Below, one piece after another: positions 5,521 to 49,648 of a DNA stretch of 64,000 bases. Source of the stretch: an uncultured Pseudomonadota bacterium (GTDB lineage Bacteria > Pseudomonadota > Alphaproteobacteria > Rs-D84). Position 1 is the stretch's first letter, and every line of letters begins with the position of its first letter. The stretch spans positions 328,077 to 392,076 of the forward strand of contig CACYHO010000001.1 in assembly GCA_902774285.1 (NCBI GenBank), written 5' to 3'. The translations under genes were made by a program, and so were the position numbers. A model generated the notes under the pieces. The model did no database searches. It was not told the origin of the DNA and saw nothing but the letters and a program-made list of their open reading frames with translations.

Positions 5521-5546
5521 AAAAAAATCCGCATTTGCGGATTTTT
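5521..5546 (-). terminator. Intrinsic terminator of the virB8-virB9-virB10 operon
   Basis: The stem ATCCGC/GCGGAT has the loop ATTT and is flanked by A and T runs. Read on the minus strand, the stem ends in a run of T directly after the virB10 stop. The symmetry would also let it work in the other direction. Confidence 0.85.
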
Positions 5547-7923
5547 ATTTAACTTCTATTGGTGGGAAACAATCACCACCTGTATCAGGACAACAATTAA
5601 ATCCTGCTTCGCCCATATCTGTATAAGTTTCACCGGCACAACATCCATTAATGTCTGGTGCGACACCACCGTCACATGTTAATACTTCTTCAGCAACAGG
5701 ATCATTCGGTGTATCCCATGGATTTATAATATTGTTTGCATCATCATATTTCAACCCAAGGACATCCTGATTGTATGCTTTTACTTGTTCATCTGAACCA
5801 CTTTGAGAAAATTGACCTGTTGTTTGATTAAATGTAACATTGCCGTATTTCTTTTCGGCTTGTGTTTTTACACTTTCGTTATATGCTGCTTGTTTAGCAT
5901 TATTTTTGGCTTGATAATTTTGTGATTCACAATACATATAAACTGTTCTGTAATCATAACCGGATTTTGCCCAATCGGAGCCAATTGATACTTTGCCGTT
6001 ATTGTCTGTATTACAATACTTTATCAAATCAAATGAACGAACTTGACCAACCCAAGAAGGATCTTGTGTGTCTATTGTTACTTTGTTTTTCAATTCAGAC
6101 CAAGGTCTACGTGGAAGGTCATCATATGTTGTAAATGCACATTTTTTGCCTTTGTTTTCGTTTTCATCACATGTGACAATTAAATCAACAGGTGAAAATA
6201 CATTTATACGTGTTCCGGCCGCAATAGAAAATGGTGGAACGGTATTATCAATTGCATCAACAATCAATTTTTGTGTGATTTTATTCCAAGTATTGATAAC
6301 TTCTTGTTTTGCCAATTCAGATGAACGAATTGTTCCAGATTGAACAACGGTATTATTATCCAAATCTATTTGATTAATAACGGTATCTGCAATTGGTGCA
6401 ATCATATTAACCGCCGCAGGAACCAAAGATGTTAATATTGGCATAACCATTTGTTCAACATAATCAGTACTGCCGTGACCAGGAACTCCAACGCGTCCTT
6501 GTGCGTCCGCAGAATATGGGTCTTGGTTATCAGTTCTAAAGTTAAATTCTACACCATCTGGACGGATAAATTGATACCATTTAATATTCATACGGCCAAA
6601 TGCCTGGTATGGCCCTGGCAATTTACCATCCAAATACCCCATTAATAATGTACCGGTTGGTAATATTATTGTGCGACCATCGTCTGAATAAACATTTCTG
6701 TCAACCGTTGCACGAACAGGGATACTGTGATTTTCTTCAGCATTACATTTGCCTGATTGTTGGTTGGAACAACCATAAACGCTTGGGTCTGCACGAACTT
6801 CAGAAACTATTGTTGCAGGAATTGGTTTAAATTGACGCAATATAAATGTTCTGTCATATGGACGTGAAGATGTTACAGATTCAGTGCCAAAGCCAGAGCC
6901 TCGTAAAGCTATTGGATCAAAATCAGCAGTTGCGTTTCTATCAAATTTTTTAATTTCTTTTTGTGCACCAGGATCATTATCTTTTATCCAAACTGCATCA
7001 TCACCAAACGTTCCATTAGTTGCAGAAATTTTGGAGGATTTCAATTGTGGAACAGTTAAATTACGTGAACGAACATTACGATATCCAAGATGATCAGAAT
7101 CTGTTCCTATTTTTGAACCATCTTTTAATGAAGTAATTATGCCAGTCGTTAAATCATATTTACCTGTTGGATTTGAACAATCTTTGTCAGAAAAAGGATA
7201 AAAATAATTCGCACCATGTTCTGGTTTTATCCAACCAATTTGACGACCAGATTGATCATATCCAGGAATTGCAAATTCAGAACATTTTTCAGGTGCCAAT
7301 ATAACAGGTTCTTCTTCTTTGAAAGGATTTTCAACAGCGATAGTTTTTATTTCTTCAACAGCCTTTTCAATAATTGGTTCTGGTTCGTATTCGATAACTT
7401 CTGGTTCCGGTTCTGGTTCTTTTACAACAGGTTCAGGTTTCTTTACTTCTTTCTTCCAAGAAGAATATTTTACAGAAACTTCAGCTGTTTTAACAATGTC
7501 AGATTGTGATTCAACATACCAATTTATTTTTACGGTTGTATCTGATTCTGGTTGAACAAATGTCGGACGATAAGTAAGTTTTATAATACAAGTATCAGTT
7601 AAATTATCGCAGGTGTCAGTTGATTTGATTTCATCAACACCTGTATCGATACTTTCTATAACCACAGGTGCACTTACAGAAACATCGATGCTTTCACTGT
7701 ACGATGCGCCAACTTCAATGTCAGTAAAATCGATAAAATTTGGTTCAACTTCAAAAGAAATATTTTCGTCCATGTTATCAGCAGGCGTGTTATTAGATTT
7801 ATGCCCCAATAACAATACTAATAATATGATAACAACAATAAAAGCGGCACCCAACAATATCCATTGGATATGTCGTGGTGTATTGGTTTTAAATTCTTTA
7901 AATTGTTGTTTTAAACTTTTCAT
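5545..7923 (-). CDS. virB10: Type IV secretion VirB10/TrbI-family protein with Cys-rich tail
   Basis: VirB10 spans both membranes and links the inner-membrane energy source to the outer-membrane pore of type IV secretion systems. Here there is a short cytoplasmic N-terminus, one transmembrane helix at about residues 20-41, a beta-rich periplasmic stretch, and a Pro/Glu-rich spacer at about 163-200. The VirB10 beta-barrel core then includes PVRATVDRNVYSDDGRT, LPTGTLLMGYLDG and a late AAGTRINVFSPVDL. After the core comes an unusual extension of about 190 residues ending in a Cys-rich tail (CDGG...NGCCAG...NCCPDTGGDC). At 792 residues it is about twice the usual VirB10 length. It lies 7 bases after virB9 and is followed by a terminator, with no virB11 here. 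Confidence 0.85.
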   Translation of the reverse strand: MKSLKQQFKEFKTNTPRHIQWILLGAAFIVVIILLVLLLGHKSNNTPADNMDENISFEVEPNFIDFTDIEVGASYSESIDVSVSAPVVIESIDTGVDEIKSTDTCDNLTDTCIIKLTYRPTFVQPESDTTVKINWYVESQSDIVKTAEVSVKYSSWKKEVKKPEPVVKEPEPEPEVIEYEPEPIIEKAVEEIKTIAVENPFKEEEPVILAPEKCSEFAIPGYDQSGRQIGWIKPEHGANYFYPFSDKDCSNPTGKYDLTTGIITSLKDGSKIGTDSDHLGYRNVRSRNLTVPQLKSSKISATNGTFGDDAVWIKDNDPGAQKEIKKFDRNATADFDPIALRGSGFGTESVTSSRPYDRTFILRQFKPIPATIVSEVRADPSVYGCSNQQSGKCNAEENHSIPVRATVDRNVYSDDGRTIILPTGTLLMGYLDGKLPGPYQAFGRMNIKWYQFIRPDGVEFNFRTDNQDPYSADAQGRVGVPGHGSTDYVEQMVMPILTSLVPAAVNMIAPIADTVINQIDLDNNTVVQSGTIRSSELAKQEVINTWNKITQKLIVDAIDNTVPPFSIAAGTRINVFSPVDLIVTCDENENKGKKCAFTTYDDLPRRPWSELKNKVTIDTQDPSWVGQVRSFDLIKYCNTDNNGKVSIGSDWAKSGYDYRTVYMYCESQNYQAKNNAKQAAYNESVKTQAEKKYGNVTFNQTTGQFSQSGSDEQVKAYNQDVLGLKYDDANNIINPWDTPNDPVAEEVLTCDGGVAPDINGCCAGETYTDMGEAGFNCCPDTGGDCFPPIEVK

Positions 7924-7930
7924 TTCTTTT

Positions 7931-9394
7931 TTATTGTATTCTTACAACGTGACAACTTGCACCGCTGAACTTTAACAATTGATCACATAACTTTTGTGCT
8001 GTATCGATATCAGACAATGGACCAATACGTAAACGATACAAACGTGCAGTTGCAGAATTAGAACCCAAATCGCCAACACCTTGTTCGTCAACAGCAAAGA
8101 ACACGCTGTTTTTATAAGGTGTTAAAATTCCTTCGCCATCATCGCCGCTGAATTTAGCCAACAAACTTGTCCAATAATCATTCAATGCTTTGACAGATGT
8201 GTCTGATTTTAATTCAACAGCGACACCGCTTTGGTTGCTGGATATTAATGGAATATTTGTTTGTGGCAAATATGCACCAGCTGTTGTGCGTGCTGTTGGA
8301 ATCATTGCTGCGCCAGCAGAACCAGCCGCAACCGGCATAACATTTGGTTGATTAGAAATATACATTGGTGTTGCGCTGTAATCCATAATGCTTTGATCTA
8401 TGGCATATTGTTCATTGCCATAAGCAACAGCGTCCAAAGATTGATTTGCGTATAATGATTGTGCAACATTTGCTTCCGCCAATGCCATTACAGATGCAGT
8501 GTCGGCAATCAAGAAAGGTTTTGCACGTTTTTTGATACAAACAATTCTTTGACCGCTGCGTAATACCATATCACCAACAGCTTCGACAATTAACAAACGA
8601 CCGTCTTCGCCATCTGTACGGAATCCAACAGGGCTTTCGCCACCTTCGACCAAAAGTGATACAACAGGGCGTTGAGTCATAGAAATAACTTTGTCACCGA
8701 AATCAATGTATGTGAATATACGATCACGCCACACACGTTCAGGTGCAATTACATAATCATCTGGATTTGGAACAAATATATCCAAATCAAAACGGAATTC
8801 AGATGGATCGATTTTCATTGTTTTTATCCATCCATAATCTTCGCCGTCAACACCAATTGTTGAAGTTGTATTTGAAGATTTTTTAAATACAGATCCCATA
8901 GAACCAGATGGTGCCGCAGCAGCGACAGATGGAATACTTGAATTTTGTCCCAATGAAATATCAACCTGGGAATATGTGATTTCGCTTGAGTTTATTGGAT
9001 AGGCACGAAGATAGAAAATATATTTATTGCCAGATTGACCCGTCACAATCATATTTGTATCATTTCCATGATTGCCAGGGGCAGGTGTGATATACATCAT
9101 TTGATCACCAGGTTTAGTATTACCTAAATCGAACAATTCTTCATTACCCACAACAATGTCTGCGATCTTTTCACCATTAGGCAATGTTACTAATGTTGCC
9201 ATACCAGCACGTGTTTTAATTGGTAATACTGTTCCTGTGGACCATGCAAGATTTGCATAACCTGGTTTAGTAGAACCAGCCGCCATATTGGCATTTGGGT
9301 TGTCCCATGCGGCCTGAAAATCAGCACACGCAGGAAACGCGCAACATAAAATTGCCAACAAAGAAAAACTTAATTTACATGTTTTTAAAGTCAT
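7931..9394 (-). CDS. virB9: Type IV secretion VirB9/TrbG/CagX-family protein with C-terminal SPOR domain
   Basis: VirB9 forms the outer part of the type IV secretion core complex with VirB7 and VirB10. The protein opens with a signal peptide (residues 1-24, ending PACA). An N-terminal VirB9-like beta domain follows, containing KTRAGMATLVTLPNGEKIADI. The C-terminal VirB9 domain has VISMTQRPVVSLLVEGG and VGFRTDGEDGRLLIVEAVGDMV (given in pieces), as expected. The final 40 residues (RLYRLRIGPLSD...) look like a SPOR domain, which binds denuded septal peptidoglycan. That is not a normal part of VirB9. A purine-rich ribosome site precedes the ATG. The gene is 29 bases from virB8 and 7 from virB10. 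Confidence 0.82.
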   Translation of the reverse strand: MTLKTCKLSFSLLAILCCAFPACADFQAAWDNPNANMAAGSTKPGYANLAWSTGTVLPIKTRAGMATLVTLPNGEKIADIVVGNEELFDLGNTKPGDQMMYITPAPGNHGNDTNMIVTGQSGNKYIFYLRAYPINSSEITYSQVDISLGQNSSIPSVAAAAPSGSMGSVFKKSSNTTSTIGVDGEDYGWIKTMKIDPSEFRFDLDIFVPNPDDYVIAPERVWRDRIFTYIDFGDKVISMTQRPVVSLLVEGGESPVGFRTDGEDGRLLIVEAVGDMVLRSGQRIVCIKKRAKPFLIADTASVMALAEANVAQSLYANQSLDAVAYGNEQYAIDQSIMDYSATPMYISNQPNVMPVAAGSAGAAMIPTARTTAGAYLPQTNIPLISSNQSGVAVELKSDTSVKALNDYWTSLLAKFSGDDGEGILTPYKNSVFFAVDEQGVGDLGSNSATARLYRLRIGPLSDIDTAQKLCDQLLKFSGASCHVVRIQ

Positions 9395-9423
9395 GTTCTT
9401 CTATCCTTACCTTTTCAAAATCT

Positions 9424-10119
9424 TTACCAAGATTCTGTATCTGAATCAAGTGGGTCACCACGATTATCCAAAACATCATATTGAACAACCTGAAGCCCAA
9501 GCGGATTATCGCGCAGTTTTTCAAGGTTATCTAGTGTTCCAGATATATTTTTATCCAGATCAGATTTTATCTTTATTTGTATCTTATAATTTTTTTGTGT
9601 GGTCTGTCCACCAATATTTTCACAAACCCAAGTAAATTTTACATGATATGTATTATCGTTGCTCATTCTTAAAATTGGCTTGTCATTATCAGGACTTGAA
9701 AAATTAACAGAACAAGACATATTTGGCAGATGTTCACCATCGGCAAATTCCCTGTAAAGACTGGTTTGTTTAAGTTGTGAGAAAACCTTAGAAGAAGACC
9801 ATGGTTTAACAATTCTGGACCAGTTTTTGCGTGTGTATCCTGGTGACATAGACAAAGTATTTCGTGCGATTACATATTCGCGTATAAAACCCTTTTGATA
9901 CAAATCGATGGCTTCTTTGTTACTGCTGTCAGGGACCAATGGTTTGATAGTGACGTTTGTAGAACGGGTAGGTGTGTGTAAAAAGAATACTTCTGGACGT
10001 TCCAGTGGCATCATTTTCATCAAAGTGAACCCTAATGCGCACAGCACAACAACAGACGTGGCCAGCACGAAAGTCAGTATTCTGGACAGCAAAACCGGTG
10101 GTTCAACAATCTTTGCCAC
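9424..10119 (-). CDS. virB8: Type IV secretion VirB8-family inner-membrane protein
   Basis: VirB8 is a bitopic assembly factor of type IV secretion systems that contacts VirB9 and VirB10. It has a short cytoplasmic tail, one transmembrane helix at about residues 13-35, and a periplasmic NTF2-like domain. The domain contains FIREYVIARNTLS, the helical motif typical of VirB8, and near the end NPLGLQVVQYDV, which matches the conserved NPxG segment. At 231 residues it is the normal size. It heads the operon virB8-virB9-virB10. No other secretion genes (virB4, virB6, virB11, virD4) lie in this window, so the rest of the machine must be elsewhere or absent. Confidence 0.83.
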   Translation of the reverse strand: MAKIVEPPVLLSRILTFVLATSVVVLCALGFTLMKMMPLERPEVFFLHTPTRSTNVTIKPLVPDSSNKEAIDLYQKGFIREYVIARNTLSMSPGYTRKNWSRIVKPWSSSKVFSQLKQTSLYREFADGEHLPNMSCSVNFSSPDNDKPILRMSNDNTYHVKFTWVCENIGGQTTQKNYKIQIKIKSDLDKNISGTLDNLEKLRDNPLGLQVVQYDVLDNRGDPLDSDTESW

Positions 10120-10193
10120 ACAAAACTCCTACATTATGTATGTTGATTGTAGACAATTTTATTTATATAGCGCAAGTAAAAAATTATGCTTTT

Positions 10194-10964
10194 TTATTGG
10201 TTTGATTCCATACTGTCGTCAAAGACACAATAAGTGTTATTTCCAAAACTGACTTTTAATTTTCGTTCGGTTTGAATATTCATTGGTGTATCAGATAAAC
10301 TCATATTCGCAGAATAAATATTTCCATTAACCCTGGTGTATAAACGATGTTCGGTTGGGTGCGCTGGCGATTGATGCATATACATAACATAATCGCCCAA
10401 ATGTAATTTACGACCACATTGCGATTCCAACCACATACCAGCCGGGGCAAATGGGTGATTCTCTGGACAAGATATGATTCCTTGTGGGGTTGTTTCATTA
10501 AATGTTAAATTTCCACCGGGGCAATAGTTATTTTGTGGACATTGGGTACAAGCATCAACATTCGCCGGTAAATAATACCCCAGTGAACAATTATGAATAT
10601 TTGGTGTAAATGTAGCAGTAATATTGGCTATATTGTTATAAGCACGTAAAAAATTTTCTTTACAACCATTCCTTATATTTTCTGTAACTTGGGTTTTGAA
10701 TTTGTTCCCTTGGTCATACTCTTCATTAAAATAAAAAGTTCCACCATTACAATCATAAACATCTGGACACACAACACAACCATCATTATTGGCTGGCACA
10801 TAATATCCAGAACCACATTGATATTGATTTGGTGTAAAGTTAGCCCATAAGTAAGTATCAGTATTCAAACCAGACGAACAACCATTTGGAATGTTTGACA
10901 TAATCAAATCGTCTGCAAATGCAGATATGGGCATTATTAAAAATAATAACCATTTGTATTTCAT
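10194..10964 (-). CDS. Exported Cys-rich repeat protein, second gene of secreted module A
   Basis: A 256-residue protein with a signal peptide (ending AFA) and two imperfect copies of a Cys-rich unit: FTPN...C..GYY.PAN.D.C..CP....C.GG...FNE. The C-terminal domain contains CPENHPFAPAGMW, SQCGRKL and YMHQSPAHPT. The same order and nearly identical C-terminal motifs recur in the protein encoded at 48449-49261. The paired cysteines suggest disulfide-stabilised repeats on a cell-surface or secreted protein. The start ATG overlaps the stop of the upstream gene (TAATG), so the two are translationally coupled. Its function is unknown; nothing catalytic is visible. Confidence 0.75.
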   Translation of the reverse strand: MKYKWLLFLIMPISAFADDLIMSNIPNGCSSGLNTDTYLWANFTPNQYQCGSGYYVPANNDGCVVCPDVYDCNGGTFYFNEEYDQGNKFKTQVTENIRNGCKENFLRAYNNIANITATFTPNIHNCSLGYYLPANVDACTQCPQNNYCPGGNLTFNETTPQGIISCPENHPFAPAGMWLESQCGRKLHLGDYVMYMHQSPAHPTEHRLYTRVNGNIYSANMSLSDTPMNIQTERKLKVSFGNNTYCVFDDSMESNQ

Positions 10965-11722
10965 TATTGTAAAACTGAACCTGCTATAAATTGCCCTGTG
11001 CCTTGGTTATAGAAAAATTGTTCTGTCACTTTGTCGTACATACATGGAGTGCCATCTTTATCAAGAACAGGGATAAAATCACGAACAAGGGTATTGTTGT
11101 CGTAGATTTTACAGTAATAAATACGACAGAAGCCAATATTAACGTTTGTTGGCCTTTTGTCCGCAAACAAACACATATTATAAGGAGAAATAAAATCATT
11201 ATTATTTGATGATAACACAAAATATGTATCGTTATTGTTGTACGCGTATTGAACGTTACGGCCATACCAATTGACAGTAAAAGGATTTGCTCCTGGTAAT
11301 GATTGTGCTGTGACACCAGAATAAATAAACTGCAAAGTACCACCCCAAATATATAATTCAAACGATTTTGAATGGGCACTTTCTCCGGAACCAAAAAAAA
11401 TATTTTCTGCTGATAAATCGTTTTTTGTGTTTTGTATTTTTATTTCTATCCCTGTAAGATTATTTGGAATATATCCTGTATCAATATACTGGGTACCTGT
11501 AGATTCCAAATATTCAATTGGTCTATAACTAGCAAGTTTCCAGCCTGTAAAAGTATAACCGTATTTTGTTGGTGGGGTGGATGGTAAAATTAAATCACTG
11601 TTAATTTCACATGTTGAATCTTGGTATGTTGTTCCGTCATAATTTAACCAATGCAGGTTTATTGTATCTGCAAATGCAAAACCGATAAACAGTAATGATA
11701 ATAATACAATAAACCGTTTCAT
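10964..11722 (-). CDS. Exported protein with InlB-type repeat and LamG-like domain, first gene of secreted module A
   Basis: A 252-residue protein. I chose the ATG at 11722 because it has the site AGGGGG and opens directly into a signal peptide (MKRFIVLLSLLFIGFAFA); the frame extends further upstream but only into the RNA leader. After the signal comes a short Listeria-Bacteroides (InlB B-type) segment with PPTKYGYTFTGW. A concanavalin/LamG-like domain follows, opening IEYLESTGTQYIDTGY. The C-terminus reads MYDKVTEQFFYNQGTGQFIAG. A homologue lies at 47685-48449 with the same ends but a strongly divergent middle. It may bind a carbohydrate or surface ligand; this is inferred from the folds only. 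Confidence 0.75.
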   Translation of the reverse strand: MKRFIVLLSLLFIGFAFADTINLHWLNYDGTTYQDSTCEINSDLILPSTPPTKYGYTFTGWKLASYRPIEYLESTGTQYIDTGYIPNNLTGIEIKIQNTKNDLSAENIFFGSGESAHSKSFELYIWGGTLQFIYSGVTAQSLPGANPFTVNWYGRNVQYAYNNNDTYFVLSSNNNDFISPYNMCLFADKRPTNVNIGFCRIYYCKIYDNNTLVRDFIPVLDKDGTPCMYDKVTEQFFYNQGTGQFIAGSVLQ

Positions 11723-11743
11723 TTGATGTTTCCCCCTGAATGC

Positions 11744-11948
11744 AAATAAAAAGACCGCCAAGAAAATGGGCGGTCGGGGAGTTAGCAATAACACATTAAA
11801 TGTTCCGTTCCCTTACGGTAAAACGGCTCCCCAACCGTAAGGTCAGGGATGATAACGGCGCAAAAAGCACCGACAACATCAGATTTACGATGCTTTCGCA
11901 CCGAATGTGTAGGCTTGCTACAGCCCCGAACCCAATCCCTTGGATTCA
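11744..11948 (-). promoter_or_regulatory. Structured RNA leader A, candidate cis-regulatory element
   Basis: About 200 nt upstream of secreted module A, homologous to the leader at 47410-47628. On the minus strand it folds into GAATCC/GGGTTC, GGCT/AGCC, CGGTGC-GAAA-GCATCG, CGGTGC/GCGCCG and a 9-bp CCTTACGGT/ACCGTAAGG helix whose loop holds GGGGAG. The matching CTCCCC lies at 11781-11776, directly beside a terminator hairpin. Every helix is kept in copy B despite sequence change. It does not match any riboswitch class I can recall. It could instead be an independent small RNA. Confidence 0.65.
11748..11775 (-). terminator. Terminator-like hairpin at the end of leader A
   Basis: The stem GACCGCC/GGCGGTC has a 9-base loop and five T residues on the minus strand. 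It ends about 25 bases before the start codon of module A's first gene, so it would stop transcription before the gene unless it is overridden. Confidence 0.75.
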
Positions 11949-30930: not shown

Positions 30931-30955
30931 AAAAAACGGGCAATGCCCGTTTTTT
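30931..30955. terminator. Bidirectional terminator
   Basis: AAAAAACGGGC-AAT-GCCCGTTTTTT between convergent genes. The same hairpin occurs again at 31862-31887. Confidence 0.92.
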
Positions 30956-31589
30956 AAAATGTATATCTTAATCCTATGCGATTTAATAATATGTGTGATA
31001 ATGCTTCTGTATCTGTCTTTAAAAATTTCATGCTGATACTTAATCCAAAACCGCGGGCATCTTCCGCAAGATATTCTATCTTTGCACCATAAAAATTGCC
31101 AGTATCTTTTATGTCCGTGTTTATAAATTCGGGCGTATATGTTGATCTGATTGTTCCTGCATCCAAACCAAGTACTATAAACACTTGCTGTCCATCTTGT
31201 TCATCTATTCTGATATAATTATCAAATTCTGCGCCAAATAAATTATGTGAAGTGTCTATATTAAATTTTGTGCTGCCATACGCAGAGGCCACATCTAATT
31301 TTGCATCCCCTGTCACATGATTATAAAACATTTGGATACCAGGATGATAAATATGAGAATCATCAAGAAATCGTATTCCAAAATTTCCACCATACGTGAA
31401 ATTCATACCATCAGAAGATAATGTACTGTATGGGACACCGTATTTTTCCATGACACCATTATTTTGTGCATTAACAGTTGCGCCCATTTCAGCAGTTATA
31501 AACGGGTGTATTTTATTAAAAATTTGTGATGCAAAAGACTGTTGTGAACATATTGCGCAACACATGCCGATAAAAAATAGTTTTTTCAT
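30954..31589 (-). CDS. Outer-membrane beta-barrel protein (opacity-type)
   Basis: A 211-residue protein with a signal peptide (to about residue 20, ending FAS), alternating hydrophobic strands and the C-terminal motif GLRYTF, with the terminal Phe needed for BAM-mediated insertion. Size and strand count suggest an 8-stranded barrel such as OmpW or opacity proteins. AAAGGATAA precedes the ATG. Its most notable feature is the structured leader at 31615-31770, which suggests that expression responds to some signal. Confidence 0.78.
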   Translation of the reverse strand: MKKLFFIGMCCAICSQQSFASQIFNKIHPFITAEMGATVNAQNNGVMEKYGVPYSTLSSDGMNFTYGGNFGIRFLDDSHIYHPGIQMFYNHVTGDAKLDVASAYGSTKFNIDTSHNLFGAEFDNYIRIDEQDGQQVFIVLGLDAGTIRSTYTPEFINTDIKDTGNFYGAKIEYLAEDARGFGLSISMKFLKTDTEALSHILLNRIGLRYTF

Positions 31590-31614
31590 TTTGTTATCCT
31601 TTTTTTATTAAAAT

Positions 31615-31770
31615 AACCGCCACAAAAAAGGCGGTTGGAGGTTAAGAACTATAATTACTAGAAAATAGCGTGCCTATTTTATCAAAAGATATTATTCGGC
31701 AACCCTCCAACCATATAAACGATTGGAGGTGTTTTTTGTCCCCACGGACACTAGTAATTTAGGGTTCTTA
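31615..31770 (-). promoter_or_regulatory. Structured leader C, switch-like (riboswitch or attenuator candidate)
   Basis: On the minus strand a 16-bp closing helix (TAAGAAC...AATTACTAG with CTAGTAATT...GTTCTTA) encloses three hairpins: TGTCC/GGACA, CCTCCAATC/GGTTGGAGG and AAAATAG/CTATTTT. A terminator-like stem AACCGCC/GGCGGTT (31636-31615) follows. CCTCCAACC at 31641-31633, overlapping that stem's 5' arm, is perfectly complementary to GGTTGGAGG of the middle hairpin, so two folds exclude each other. It lies about 25 bases upstream of the outer-membrane protein start. The ligand is unknown. Confidence 0.65.
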
Positions 31771-31861
31771 CGCCCAACACAACTTATTGTGCTGATTACA
31801 GAGTAAAATACTTGTATTATAAAATCAAGAATTTATTGCTGATATTAAATATATTTTGGTT

Positions 31862-47299: not shown

Positions 47300-47409
47300 A
47301 ATTCAAATTTATAATTCCTGACAGGAATATATACAAATGGTTTTGGTGGGGATTTTTTATTAAAGTTTTTTCTGTTTACATTTGATAACCCGTATTTTAT
47401 AATAATTTT

Positions 47410-47628
47410 TGAATCCAAGGGATTGGATTCAGGGCTGTCATAAGCCAACTTTGTCCGGTGCGAAAGCATCGTTATCTGATGTTATCGGTGTTTTTTTGCA
47501 CCGTTATCATCCCTGATTGTTATGGTCGGGGAGCCGTTGGTTATAAAATACGAGCAATCGAAAGACCGCGGAATCAATGACAAAGTGATTTATGAACTCC
47601 CTGACCGCCCTTTGAGACGGTCTTTTTT
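47410..47628 (+). promoter_or_regulatory. Structured RNA leader B, candidate cis-regulatory element
   Basis: Homologue of leader A (11744-11948, minus strand). Helices: GAATCC/GGATTC (47411-47430), GGCT/AGCC (47433-47446), CGGTGC-GAAA-GCATCG (47456-47471), GATG...CATC enclosing CGGTGT/GCACCG (47478-47511), and TTATGG/TTATAA (47520-47546), whose loop holds GGGGAG. CTCCCT (47597-47602) can pair with that loop. A terminator-like hairpin GACCG/CGGTC with six T residues ends it at 47628. Compensatory differences from A support the fold. Function unknown. Confidence 0.65.
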
Positions 47629-47657
47629 GTCGCGGCTTTGCGACAGCAAAGACGGAT
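47628..47657. repeat. 30-base repeat, copy 1 (second at 49619-49648)
   Basis: A 30-base sequence, TGTCGCGGCTTTGCG followed by two variable bases and then AGCAAAGACGGAT, occurs again at 49619-49648 in the same orientation with 28 of 30 matches. It contains CTTTGC/GCAAAG and can form a hairpin. The two copies bracket secreted module B and the GIY-YIG gene. Leader A has no counterpart at this position. Confidence 0.7.
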
Positions 47658-47684
47658 TATTTGCATTCGGGGAGAAAACATCAG

Positions 47685-48449
47685 ATGAAACGGTTTTTAA
47701 TATTATTATCATTACTGTTATGTAATACGGTATGTGCAGAAACAATAAATATAAATTGGATGGTTGATGAACAACAATATGGCACCCCAACAACTTGTGA
47801 ATACAGTGGTGATGTAATATTACCAACCCCCCCAACAAAATATGGTTATACCTTCGCCGGCTGGGAACCAAGCACTTATATTTTCTTGGAGTATATTCAA
47901 AATTCAGGGACTCAGAAAATAGATACAGGTGTAACAATAACAAATGGTAAGAGATTTGAGATTGATGTACAATTGAACAGCGATAGCCCAACCGAAAGTT
48001 CTATTATGGGTACAGGTGGTGGTTATGATACTAACTTTGTTTCAATACGCGCGGGAAATTATTTTAGTAATAATATATTTGGGTTCATAAAGAATCTAAA
48101 ATATTACACACCTGGAAATATAACCAAAGATGCACAGAGACACTTGTTTGTAATTGATTTGAATAATAATAAAGTAAGAATTGATCAATATGAGGCGATT
48201 ACAGACGGTACAACAAACAGTAGCCTAACTTGGTGGATTGGAAGTTATATGGGAAGTACTTCATCTGGATTTGATTGGATAGGTAAATATTATGGTATAA
48301 AGATATATGATAACGAAGAATTAATACATGACTTTATACCTGCAAAACGATTGTCTGATAATGCTGTTGGTATGTATGATTTTGTAAGTGGGACCTTCTT
48401 TGGTAATGCCGGAACCGGAACATTTATTGCGGGGCCAGTTGCTAACTAA
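47685..48449 (+). CDS. Exported protein with InlB-type repeat and LamG-like domain, first gene of secreted module B
   Basis: A 254-residue homologue of the 10964-11722 product. The start at 47685 has the site GGGGAG and opens a signal peptide (MKRFLILLSLLLCNTVCA). An InlB-type segment (PPTKYGYTFAGW) follows, then a LamG-like domain opening FLEYIQNSGTQKIDTG, and the shared C-terminal motif MYDFVSGTFFGNAGTGTFIAG. The central 150 residues diverge strongly between the copies while both ends stay alike. That would fit diversification of a binding face. Its stop overlaps the next start (TAATG). Confidence 0.75.
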   Translation: MKRFLILLSLLLCNTVCAETININWMVDEQQYGTPTTCEYSGDVILPTPPTKYGYTFAGWEPSTYIFLEYIQNSGTQKIDTGVTITNGKRFEIDVQLNSDSPTESSIMGTGGGYDTNFVSIRAGNYFSNNIFGFIKNLKYYTPGNITKDAQRHLFVIDLNNNKVRIDQYEAITDGTTNSSLTWWIGSYMGSTSSGFDWIGKYYGIKIYDNEELIHDFIPAKRLSDNAVGMYDFVSGTFFGNAGTGTFIAGPVAN

Positions 48450-49618: not shown

Positions 49619-49648
49619 TGTCGCGGCTTTGCGCTAGCAAAGACGGAT
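49619..49648. repeat. 30-base repeat, copy 2, abutting tRNA-Thr
   Basis: 28/30 match to 47628-47657 in the same orientation. Its last base coincides with the 3' CCA end of the tRNA-Thr gene. Between the GIY-YIG start and here lie a CGCAC/GTGCG hairpin and G+C-richer non-coding sequence. Confidence 0.7.

Follow-up and report, generated by a model that had tools for sequence, protein, structure and literature searches.

The leader that begins at 47410 of the window (the whole 64,000-nt stretch of DNA analysed here) raises the question of what a structured RNA does in front of a gene for an exported protein. An initial annotation had proposed that this leader (leader B, plus strand) and a second one (leader A, minus strand) align as a single structured element. 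The two are indeed copies of one element, alignable over about 215 nt (78% mean column identity in an alignment of 343 columns), and both fold better than dinucleotide shuffles (z=−3.9 for B and z=−6.8 for A). Two of the helices then listed, GAATCC/GGATTC and CGGTGC/GCRCCG, are kept with base changes, as claimed. The third does not hold, since CCTTACGGT/ACCGTAAGG occurs only in leader A, where P5 has been replaced, and its supposed counterpart TTATGG/TTATAA is unpaired in B. Nor is GGGGAGCCGTT a loop; GGTCGGGGAG serves both as the 3' strand of P4 and as the 5' strand of a rival helix, in which it pairs with CTCCCYGACC. Missing from the list were the helices with the strongest covariation, a (ACTTTGTC/GACAAAGT) and b (TCATAA/TTATGA in leader B). 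The element had also been counted as present twice; besides A and B the window contains an overlooked third copy at 31795-31595, with its own addresses and a GGUUGGAGG/CCUCCAACC closing helix, and the genome holds four. A further close copy in the same genome lies at G000:C1:132618-132849 (minus strand). The features are as follows.

47375-47403, plus strand: leader B promoter, TTTACA (47375-47380), 17-nt spacer, TATAAT (47398-47403), read from sequence
47410-47642, plus strand: leader B, full element, RNA start at about 47410 (covariance model R1, 228.3 bits, E 1.5e-62)
47411-47430, plus strand: P1, 5' hairpin of leader B (covariation z=19)
47438-47443, plus strand: address strand b1 of leader B, UCAUAA, in the P2 loop (covaries with b')
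47448-47455, plus strand: address strand a1 of leader B, ACUUUGUC (covaries with a')
47456-47503, plus strand: P3 region of leader B, four strands CGGUGC/GCAUCG/CGGUG/GCACCG with two alternative pairings (minimum free energy folds, alignment)
47510-47533, plus strand: P4 hairpin of leader B (z=2.0; competing closing helix z=5.9)
47524-47610, plus strand: sRNA-Xcc1-like domain of leader B, its extent set by homology to the matches in L019, L017 and L035, B itself giving no RF02221 match
47579-47586, plus strand: strand a' of leader B, GACAAAGU (helix a z=87, 360 double changes in 119 sequences)
47590-47595, plus strand: strand b' of leader B, UUAUGA (helix b z=57, 177 double changes)
47597-47606, plus strand: closing-helix 3' strand of leader B, CUCCCUGACC, whose last bases are the terminator 5' arm (columns 196-199 common to both)
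47603-47627, plus strand: intrinsic terminator of leader B, GACCGCC...GACGGUC-U6 (covariation z=7.8; read from sequence)
47685-48449, plus strand: first gene behind leader B, exported protein with a List_Bact repeat-like segment
48449-49261, plus strand: second gene of the pair behind leader B, overlapping the first by ATGA
11733-11948, minus strand: leader A, full element, P5 hairpin replaced (R1, 185.5 bits)
11920-11915 and 11788-11783, minus strand: b1 and b' of leader A
11910-11904 and 11797-11791, minus strand: a1 and a' of leader A
10194-11722, minus strand: gene pair behind leader A
31595-31795, minus strand: third leader copy, diverged (R1, 62.5 bits, E 9e-16)
30954-31589, minus strand: gene behind the third copy, with a signal peptide, likely an outer-membrane barrel

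In its general anatomy the leader, of about 215 nt, runs from a σ70-like promoter and an RNA start at TGAATCC through an intrinsic terminator to a Shine–Dalgarno (SD) sequence and the start codon. The TATAAT of leader B ends 6 nt 5' of TGAATCC, and the positions of the −35 and −10 sequences relative to the element start are kept across 128 copies. Because the promoter lies at this fixed distance, the element is predicted to begin at or next to +1. At the 3' end GACCGCC...GGCGGTC is followed by a U-run, the SD sequence and the start codon. A terminator placed between promoter and start codon, together with a conserved competing helix, is the arrangement of an intrinsic-terminator attenuator. 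The arm and loop of P1 in leader B are complementary to the terminator loop region, and P1 matches the terminator of its own leader better than foreign terminators (z=12.6, not corrected for the tree).

Covariation was assessed in 119 sequences less than 90% identical, against 30 pairing-free alignments simulated along the inferred tree. Nine column pairs exceed all 30 simulations, and all of them lie within helices a and b. Helix a (columns 42-48 with 172-178) reaches a whole-helix z of 87 and helix b (columns 32-34 with 185-187) one of 57, followed by P1 (19), P5 (15), the P5 tip (13.5), the terminator (7.8), Pa, GGGG/CUCCCC (6.9), the closing helix GGUCGGGGAG/CUCCCCGACC (5.9) and P2 (4.4); covariation in P4 is weak (2.0). 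Selection for RNA structure, as proposed in the annotation, is strongly supported by these excesses over the simulated nulls. The 3' strand of P4, GGUCGGGGAG (47524-47533 in leader B), has an alternative pairing partner at 47597-47606. The closing helix has columns 196-199 in common with the base of the terminator and CUCCCC in common with Pa, so that it cannot coexist with either, and since it excludes the terminator the leader can be regarded as a switch. For both A and B the fold with P4 and the terminator is predicted to be better than the enforced closed domain by about 6-7 kcal/mol (pseudoknots ignored), a gap that appears close enough for switching although it is no proof of it. Sequestration of the SD sequence by AACUCCC favours own over foreign partners with only a small effect (z=3.3), and we do not rely on it.

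How such a leader might work can be outlined. Comparison shows the promoter, the helices, the overlap between closing helix and terminator, the private addresses, the diverse cargo and the kinship with phage antirepressor leaders, and we consider it somewhat likely that the element attenuates transcription as a self-addressed leader, apparently akin to phage antirepressor-control RNA. Transcription would start at TGAATCC. In the OFF fold a1 and b1 would pair with the RNA's own a' and b', P4 would form, and the terminator would halt transcription ahead of the gene, releasing an RNA of about 215 nt. In the ON fold GGUCGGGGAG would pair with CUCCCYGACC and close the sRNA-Xcc1-like domain; the closing helix would take the 5' arm of the terminator and RNA polymerase would read through. 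The role of the a/b-paired fold as the OFF state, the action of the released RNA in trans and the trigger of the switch are what we infer.

The element is by no means confined to this genome. A search of related genomes with a covariance model (R1, built from 27 leader copies), which the annotation had suggested, gave matches in 55 of the 59 genus genomes and, at the level of the order, in 174 out of 190. The highest copy numbers per genome of about 1 Mb are 50, 48, 34, 33 and 32, with more candidates scored, and some 20 genomes elsewhere in the class carry one to six copies each, an undercount under strict filters. By a conserved protein (RpoB, recognized by size and context) the relatives are rumen and gut alphaproteobacteria, with about 80% protein identity to Candidatus Enterousia. 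Enterousia has been assigned to the reduced-genome order Rs-D84 (PMC12306168), and the genome of the window is accordingly taken to be a probable member of this order or a near neighbour of it.

Equally, the genes behind the leader are far more varied than the secreted pair that had been named as its partner. A downstream ORF is present for 155 of 162 leader copies, with its start codon (ATG in 143 of the 155) a median of 6 nt beyond the end of the model, and these ORFs fall into 98 families unrelated at E 1e-5. More than half are secreted, lipoprotein or membrane-anchored by a crude rule. The proposal that the RNA controls surface-protein expression thus agrees with the most frequent cargo, secreted and surface genes, but was too narrow, as glycosyltransferases, nucleases, DNA methyltransferases and others stand behind the same leader. 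Pfam and PADLOC matches include outer-membrane barrels, autotransporters, ankyrin repeats, glycosyltransferases and LicD, as well as type I, II and III DNA methyltransferases, an Mrr nuclease and a superinfection-immunity family. Between-genome pairs of leaders with identical addresses carry unrelated cargo in 16 of 24 cases, and the common unit may span no more than about −30 to +240. In G004 two genes intervene between the leader and the gene that stands directly behind it in G016. Gain or loss of operon genes behind a collinear leader was also seen when L500 was compared with L501, L493 with L494 and L498 with L499, directly behind the leader in two of these comparisons. The genes of the secreted pair, overlapping by ATGA behind B, are adjacent behind A and are separated by a repeat-like insertion at the third genomic copy (L036 2720-2840). 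The pair behind A is followed immediately by a VirB8-like gene (9427-10119), and its surroundings (window 5545-11794, minus strand) look like a type IV secretion cluster.

The strands of helices a and b differ from copy to copy in a manner that gives each leader its own address. Across 98 copies in five genomes, own a1/a' pairing averages 6.96 of 7 positions and own b1/b' pairing 5.98 of 6, and the preference of a'/b' for own over foreign a1/b1 has a z of 37. Joint a+b addresses among the fetched copies are all distinct within a genome (41/41, 19/19, 19/19 and 13/13); for the 41 of G014, a draw from the pool of other genomes would be expected to yield about 34 distinct addresses (P=0.001 for all distinct). 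When copies at least 90% identical elsewhere are considered, the address is shared with the nearest same-genome copy in 0 of 27 cases and with the nearest copy from another genome in 15 of 31 (Fisher 1e-5, the pairs not being independent). Short-read MAGs may drop exact duplicates; assembly collapse is unlikely at 80-95% identity, and there the contrast persists, with 0 of 60 shared within and 15 of 73 between genomes. Between close paralogues the divergence of a1 is about sixfold that of the remaining leader. Avoidance of cross-matches by single arms was not seen within genomes, where single arms match slightly more than they do between genomes, and single arms recur in new combinations; it seems to be the joint address, rather than the single arm, that counts. 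The private addresses suggest selection against cross-talk between copies, which would make sense if leader RNAs could meet other leaders in trans. Since each copy has a private address, a leader RNA would be able to engage its own locus only. Tentatively, we raise the possibility of addressing on a genome-wide scale, in which an antisense switch of the phage lysogeny type was captured and then amplified to tens of promoter-leader units with private two-part addresses, each acting in trans on no locus but its own. Every new copy would need a fresh address, and dozens of accessory surface and defence genes could be switched independently in a genome of about 1 Mb.

The sRNA-Xcc1 family (Rfam RF02221) is known from Xanthomonas as an sRNA of integrons, plasmids and transposons, and the 3' part of the leader is apparently a distant relative of it. 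At gathering level Rfam finds only tRNAs over the window and nothing at the leaders; to that extent the earlier statement that no described class is recognizable stands, but the 3' domain is a repeated sub-threshold match to RF02221. Full-length matches below threshold cover this domain in L019, L017 and L035 (alignments 1-87; scores of the repeated full-length leader matches 41.4, 38.6 and 38.6 bits). Leader A scores 24.3 bits (E 2.8), below the gathering score of 53 bits, and no match was obtained for leader B at E≤5 or for the third window copy at E≤1; the window copies, far under the cut-off, are not filed as members. A genus copy in front of a phage Rha-type ORF (G020:C7:80229) reaches 57.8 bits, with a graded series beneath it (50.3, 46.7 and 46.2 bits), and RF02221 matches occur in 0 of 14 control genomes. 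The RF02221 secondary structure is found in the leaders as the covarying closing helix (z=5.9), P5 (z=15) and P5 tip (z=13.5).

A blastn search of plasmids and phages with the sRNA-Xcc1 consensus gave few, weak matches. Scanning viral contigs for the exact motif (22 specified bases) did far better and located at least 120 contig stretches. Fifty-four of the 66 non-redundant ORFs downstream of the phage elements belong to one cluster, and the sampled ORFs, directly behind RF02221, are of the AntA, Phage_pRha, Bro-N with P22_AR_C, P22_AR_N and KilA-N types. RF02221 scored above gathering in 10 of 10 phage contigs scanned and the c4 model (RF01695) in 0 of the 10; seven leader loci searched with RF01695 at E≤5, and L096 at E≤10, likewise gave no match, and c4 was not found in the 70-94.8 kb stretch of phage P1. 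For 43 non-redundant copies from phages, the P3-loop/J3-1 segment has complements in the element's own downstream region, often the SD sequence (z=7.8), and in its own upstream region (z=6.4), several copies having the same 7-8 nt on both sides. Phage c4 RNA has this a1b1/a'b'/a2b2 layout, and according to a passage in PMC5320573 that cites Citron and Schuster its a' and b' bind the target mRNA and occlude the ribosome-binding site. Because the complements lie up- and downstream, as described for c4, RF02221 is predicted from its sequence to work like c4 without matching the c4 model. No paper making this point turned up in a limited literature search, an outcome that counts weakly as evidence of absence. 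The bacterial leaders show at best a weak downstream a2b2 target at the SD sequence of the controlled gene (z=2.5), and they are therefore not c4 systems as such. It was also observed that sRNA-Xcc1 is widespread in phages and prophages (IMG/VR L047-L126), just 5' of antirepressor-type genes with swapped N-terminal domains, and that one phage contig with such an element holds a sok antitoxin RNA match (104.3 bits, L118 4061-4232, minus strand). An 88-nt sRNA-Xcc1 RNA has been mapped (PMC2996969), and in Xanthomonas the RNA is reported in integron cassettes upstream of symE (PMC12444791). The current account of it, as a virulence sRNA that acts in trans, seems incomplete.

The main rival to a self-addressed leader with action in trans is the same attenuator working in cis only, with helices a and b as architecture, addresses that drift neutrally by compensatory change, and released RNAs inert on other loci. 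All partners lie within one transcript and pair almost perfectly, Hfq (PF17209) was not found in eight genus genomes (G000, G010, G014, G032, G039, G049, G051 and G058; the same search matched 5 of 14 control genomes), and mean single-arm cross-matching is slightly higher within genomes than between them. This cis-only reading is nevertheless rather unlikely, as within a genome the full a+b address is always distinct, yet near-identical leaders of other genomes often share it, and a1 outpaces the remainder of the leader about sixfold between close paralogues even though each step takes two changes. A metabolite or ion riboswitch, with the AUAMAAUA/GAA internal loop and GNAA hairpin as pocket and the closing helix as ligand-stabilized P1, is improbable: its anatomy of conserved internal loop, three-strand switch and terminator is present, and one class stands before many genes, but the cargo has no common metabolic theme, most of the conserved P5 loop is missing from leader A, and the diversified addresses would be left unexplained.

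The title of reference 82 in PMC12444791 describes RF02221 as a trans-acting sRNA, and the mapped 88-nt RNA (PMC2996969) would fit a small RNA that acts on distant mRNAs and stands before genes incidentally. This we regard as highly improbable, given that nearly all copies lie directly 5' of a start codon and that the complements are the element's own flanks in phages and bacteria alike. Recurrence of a unit of about −46 to +240 at non-syntenic loci, with different cargo right behind it in different genomes, and the integron cassettes with sRNA-Xcc1 (PMC12444791) recall a DNA-level recombination site (attC- or attI-like) that folds as single-stranded DNA and has cargo swapped behind it. Integron integrase (TIGR02249) scored above cut-off in 0 of 8 genomes, the promoter, U-run terminator and SD spacing are features at the RNA level, and in one case the new genes lie in a single operon with no second leader or recognizable site, all of which makes such a site extremely unlikely. 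There is hardly any likelihood left for a regulator dedicated to the secreted gene pair, the narrow version first put forward. Three copies in this genome do precede homologous pairs, but the census of 98 unrelated downstream families refutes it and the gene behind the diverged window copy is unrelated.

The attenuation leader favoured here can be set beside several known systems. With sRNA-Xcc1 it has in common the closing helix and the AUAMAAUA/GAA internal loop with a GNAA hairpin, and in both a third hairpin with a' is followed in the same order by a joining strand with b'. The bacterial leader differs in having about 115 nt more upstream (P1, P2/b1, a1, P3 and the P4 5' strand) and a strong terminator, and in occurring in many copies before unrelated genes. 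Like the c4 antisense RNA of phages P1 and P7, it is a small structured RNA 5' of the gene it would control, with recognition strands a' and b' in which a few bases set specificity, and the phage relatives resemble c4 also in their complements on both sides and their position before antirepressors. The c4 model does not match, however, and the bacterial leaders have an intrinsic terminator in place of a clear a2b2. The C4-derived Group 1 sRNAs of Acinetobacter baumannii (PMC5320573) are likewise a multiplied phage antirepressor-control RNA in a bacterial genome with a variable a'; the c4 model detects them, and they have been described as sRNAs that arise by processing, whereas the present copies are 5' leaders that retain their own complement. 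Attenuating leaders and riboswitches share the three-strand competition of closing helix and terminator before a start codon. Here, in contrast, there is no known ligand and copy-specific address helices are the dominant conserved feature.

If this reading is true, a single RNA switch, multiplied into copies that avoid each other like orthogonal parts in synthetic biology, governs a large share of the accessory surface and defence genes of tiny uncultured gut bacteria. Rfam sRNA-Xcc1, so far a virulence-linked trans-acting sRNA, would be re-read as a family of antirepressor leaders, and the natural set of compensating address variants would offer a gauge of the RNA cross-talk that a cell tolerates.

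A palindromic repeat of about 30 nt, TTTTGTCGCGGCTTTGCGACAGCAAAGA, lies between the terminator and the SD sequence of leader B (window 47628-47661). It is found again beside the tRNA-Thr gene (window 49619-49648) and, at 85-100% identity, in many related genomes. The repeat is a REP-like insertion, and the longer spacer between terminator and SD sequence in leader B is due to it.
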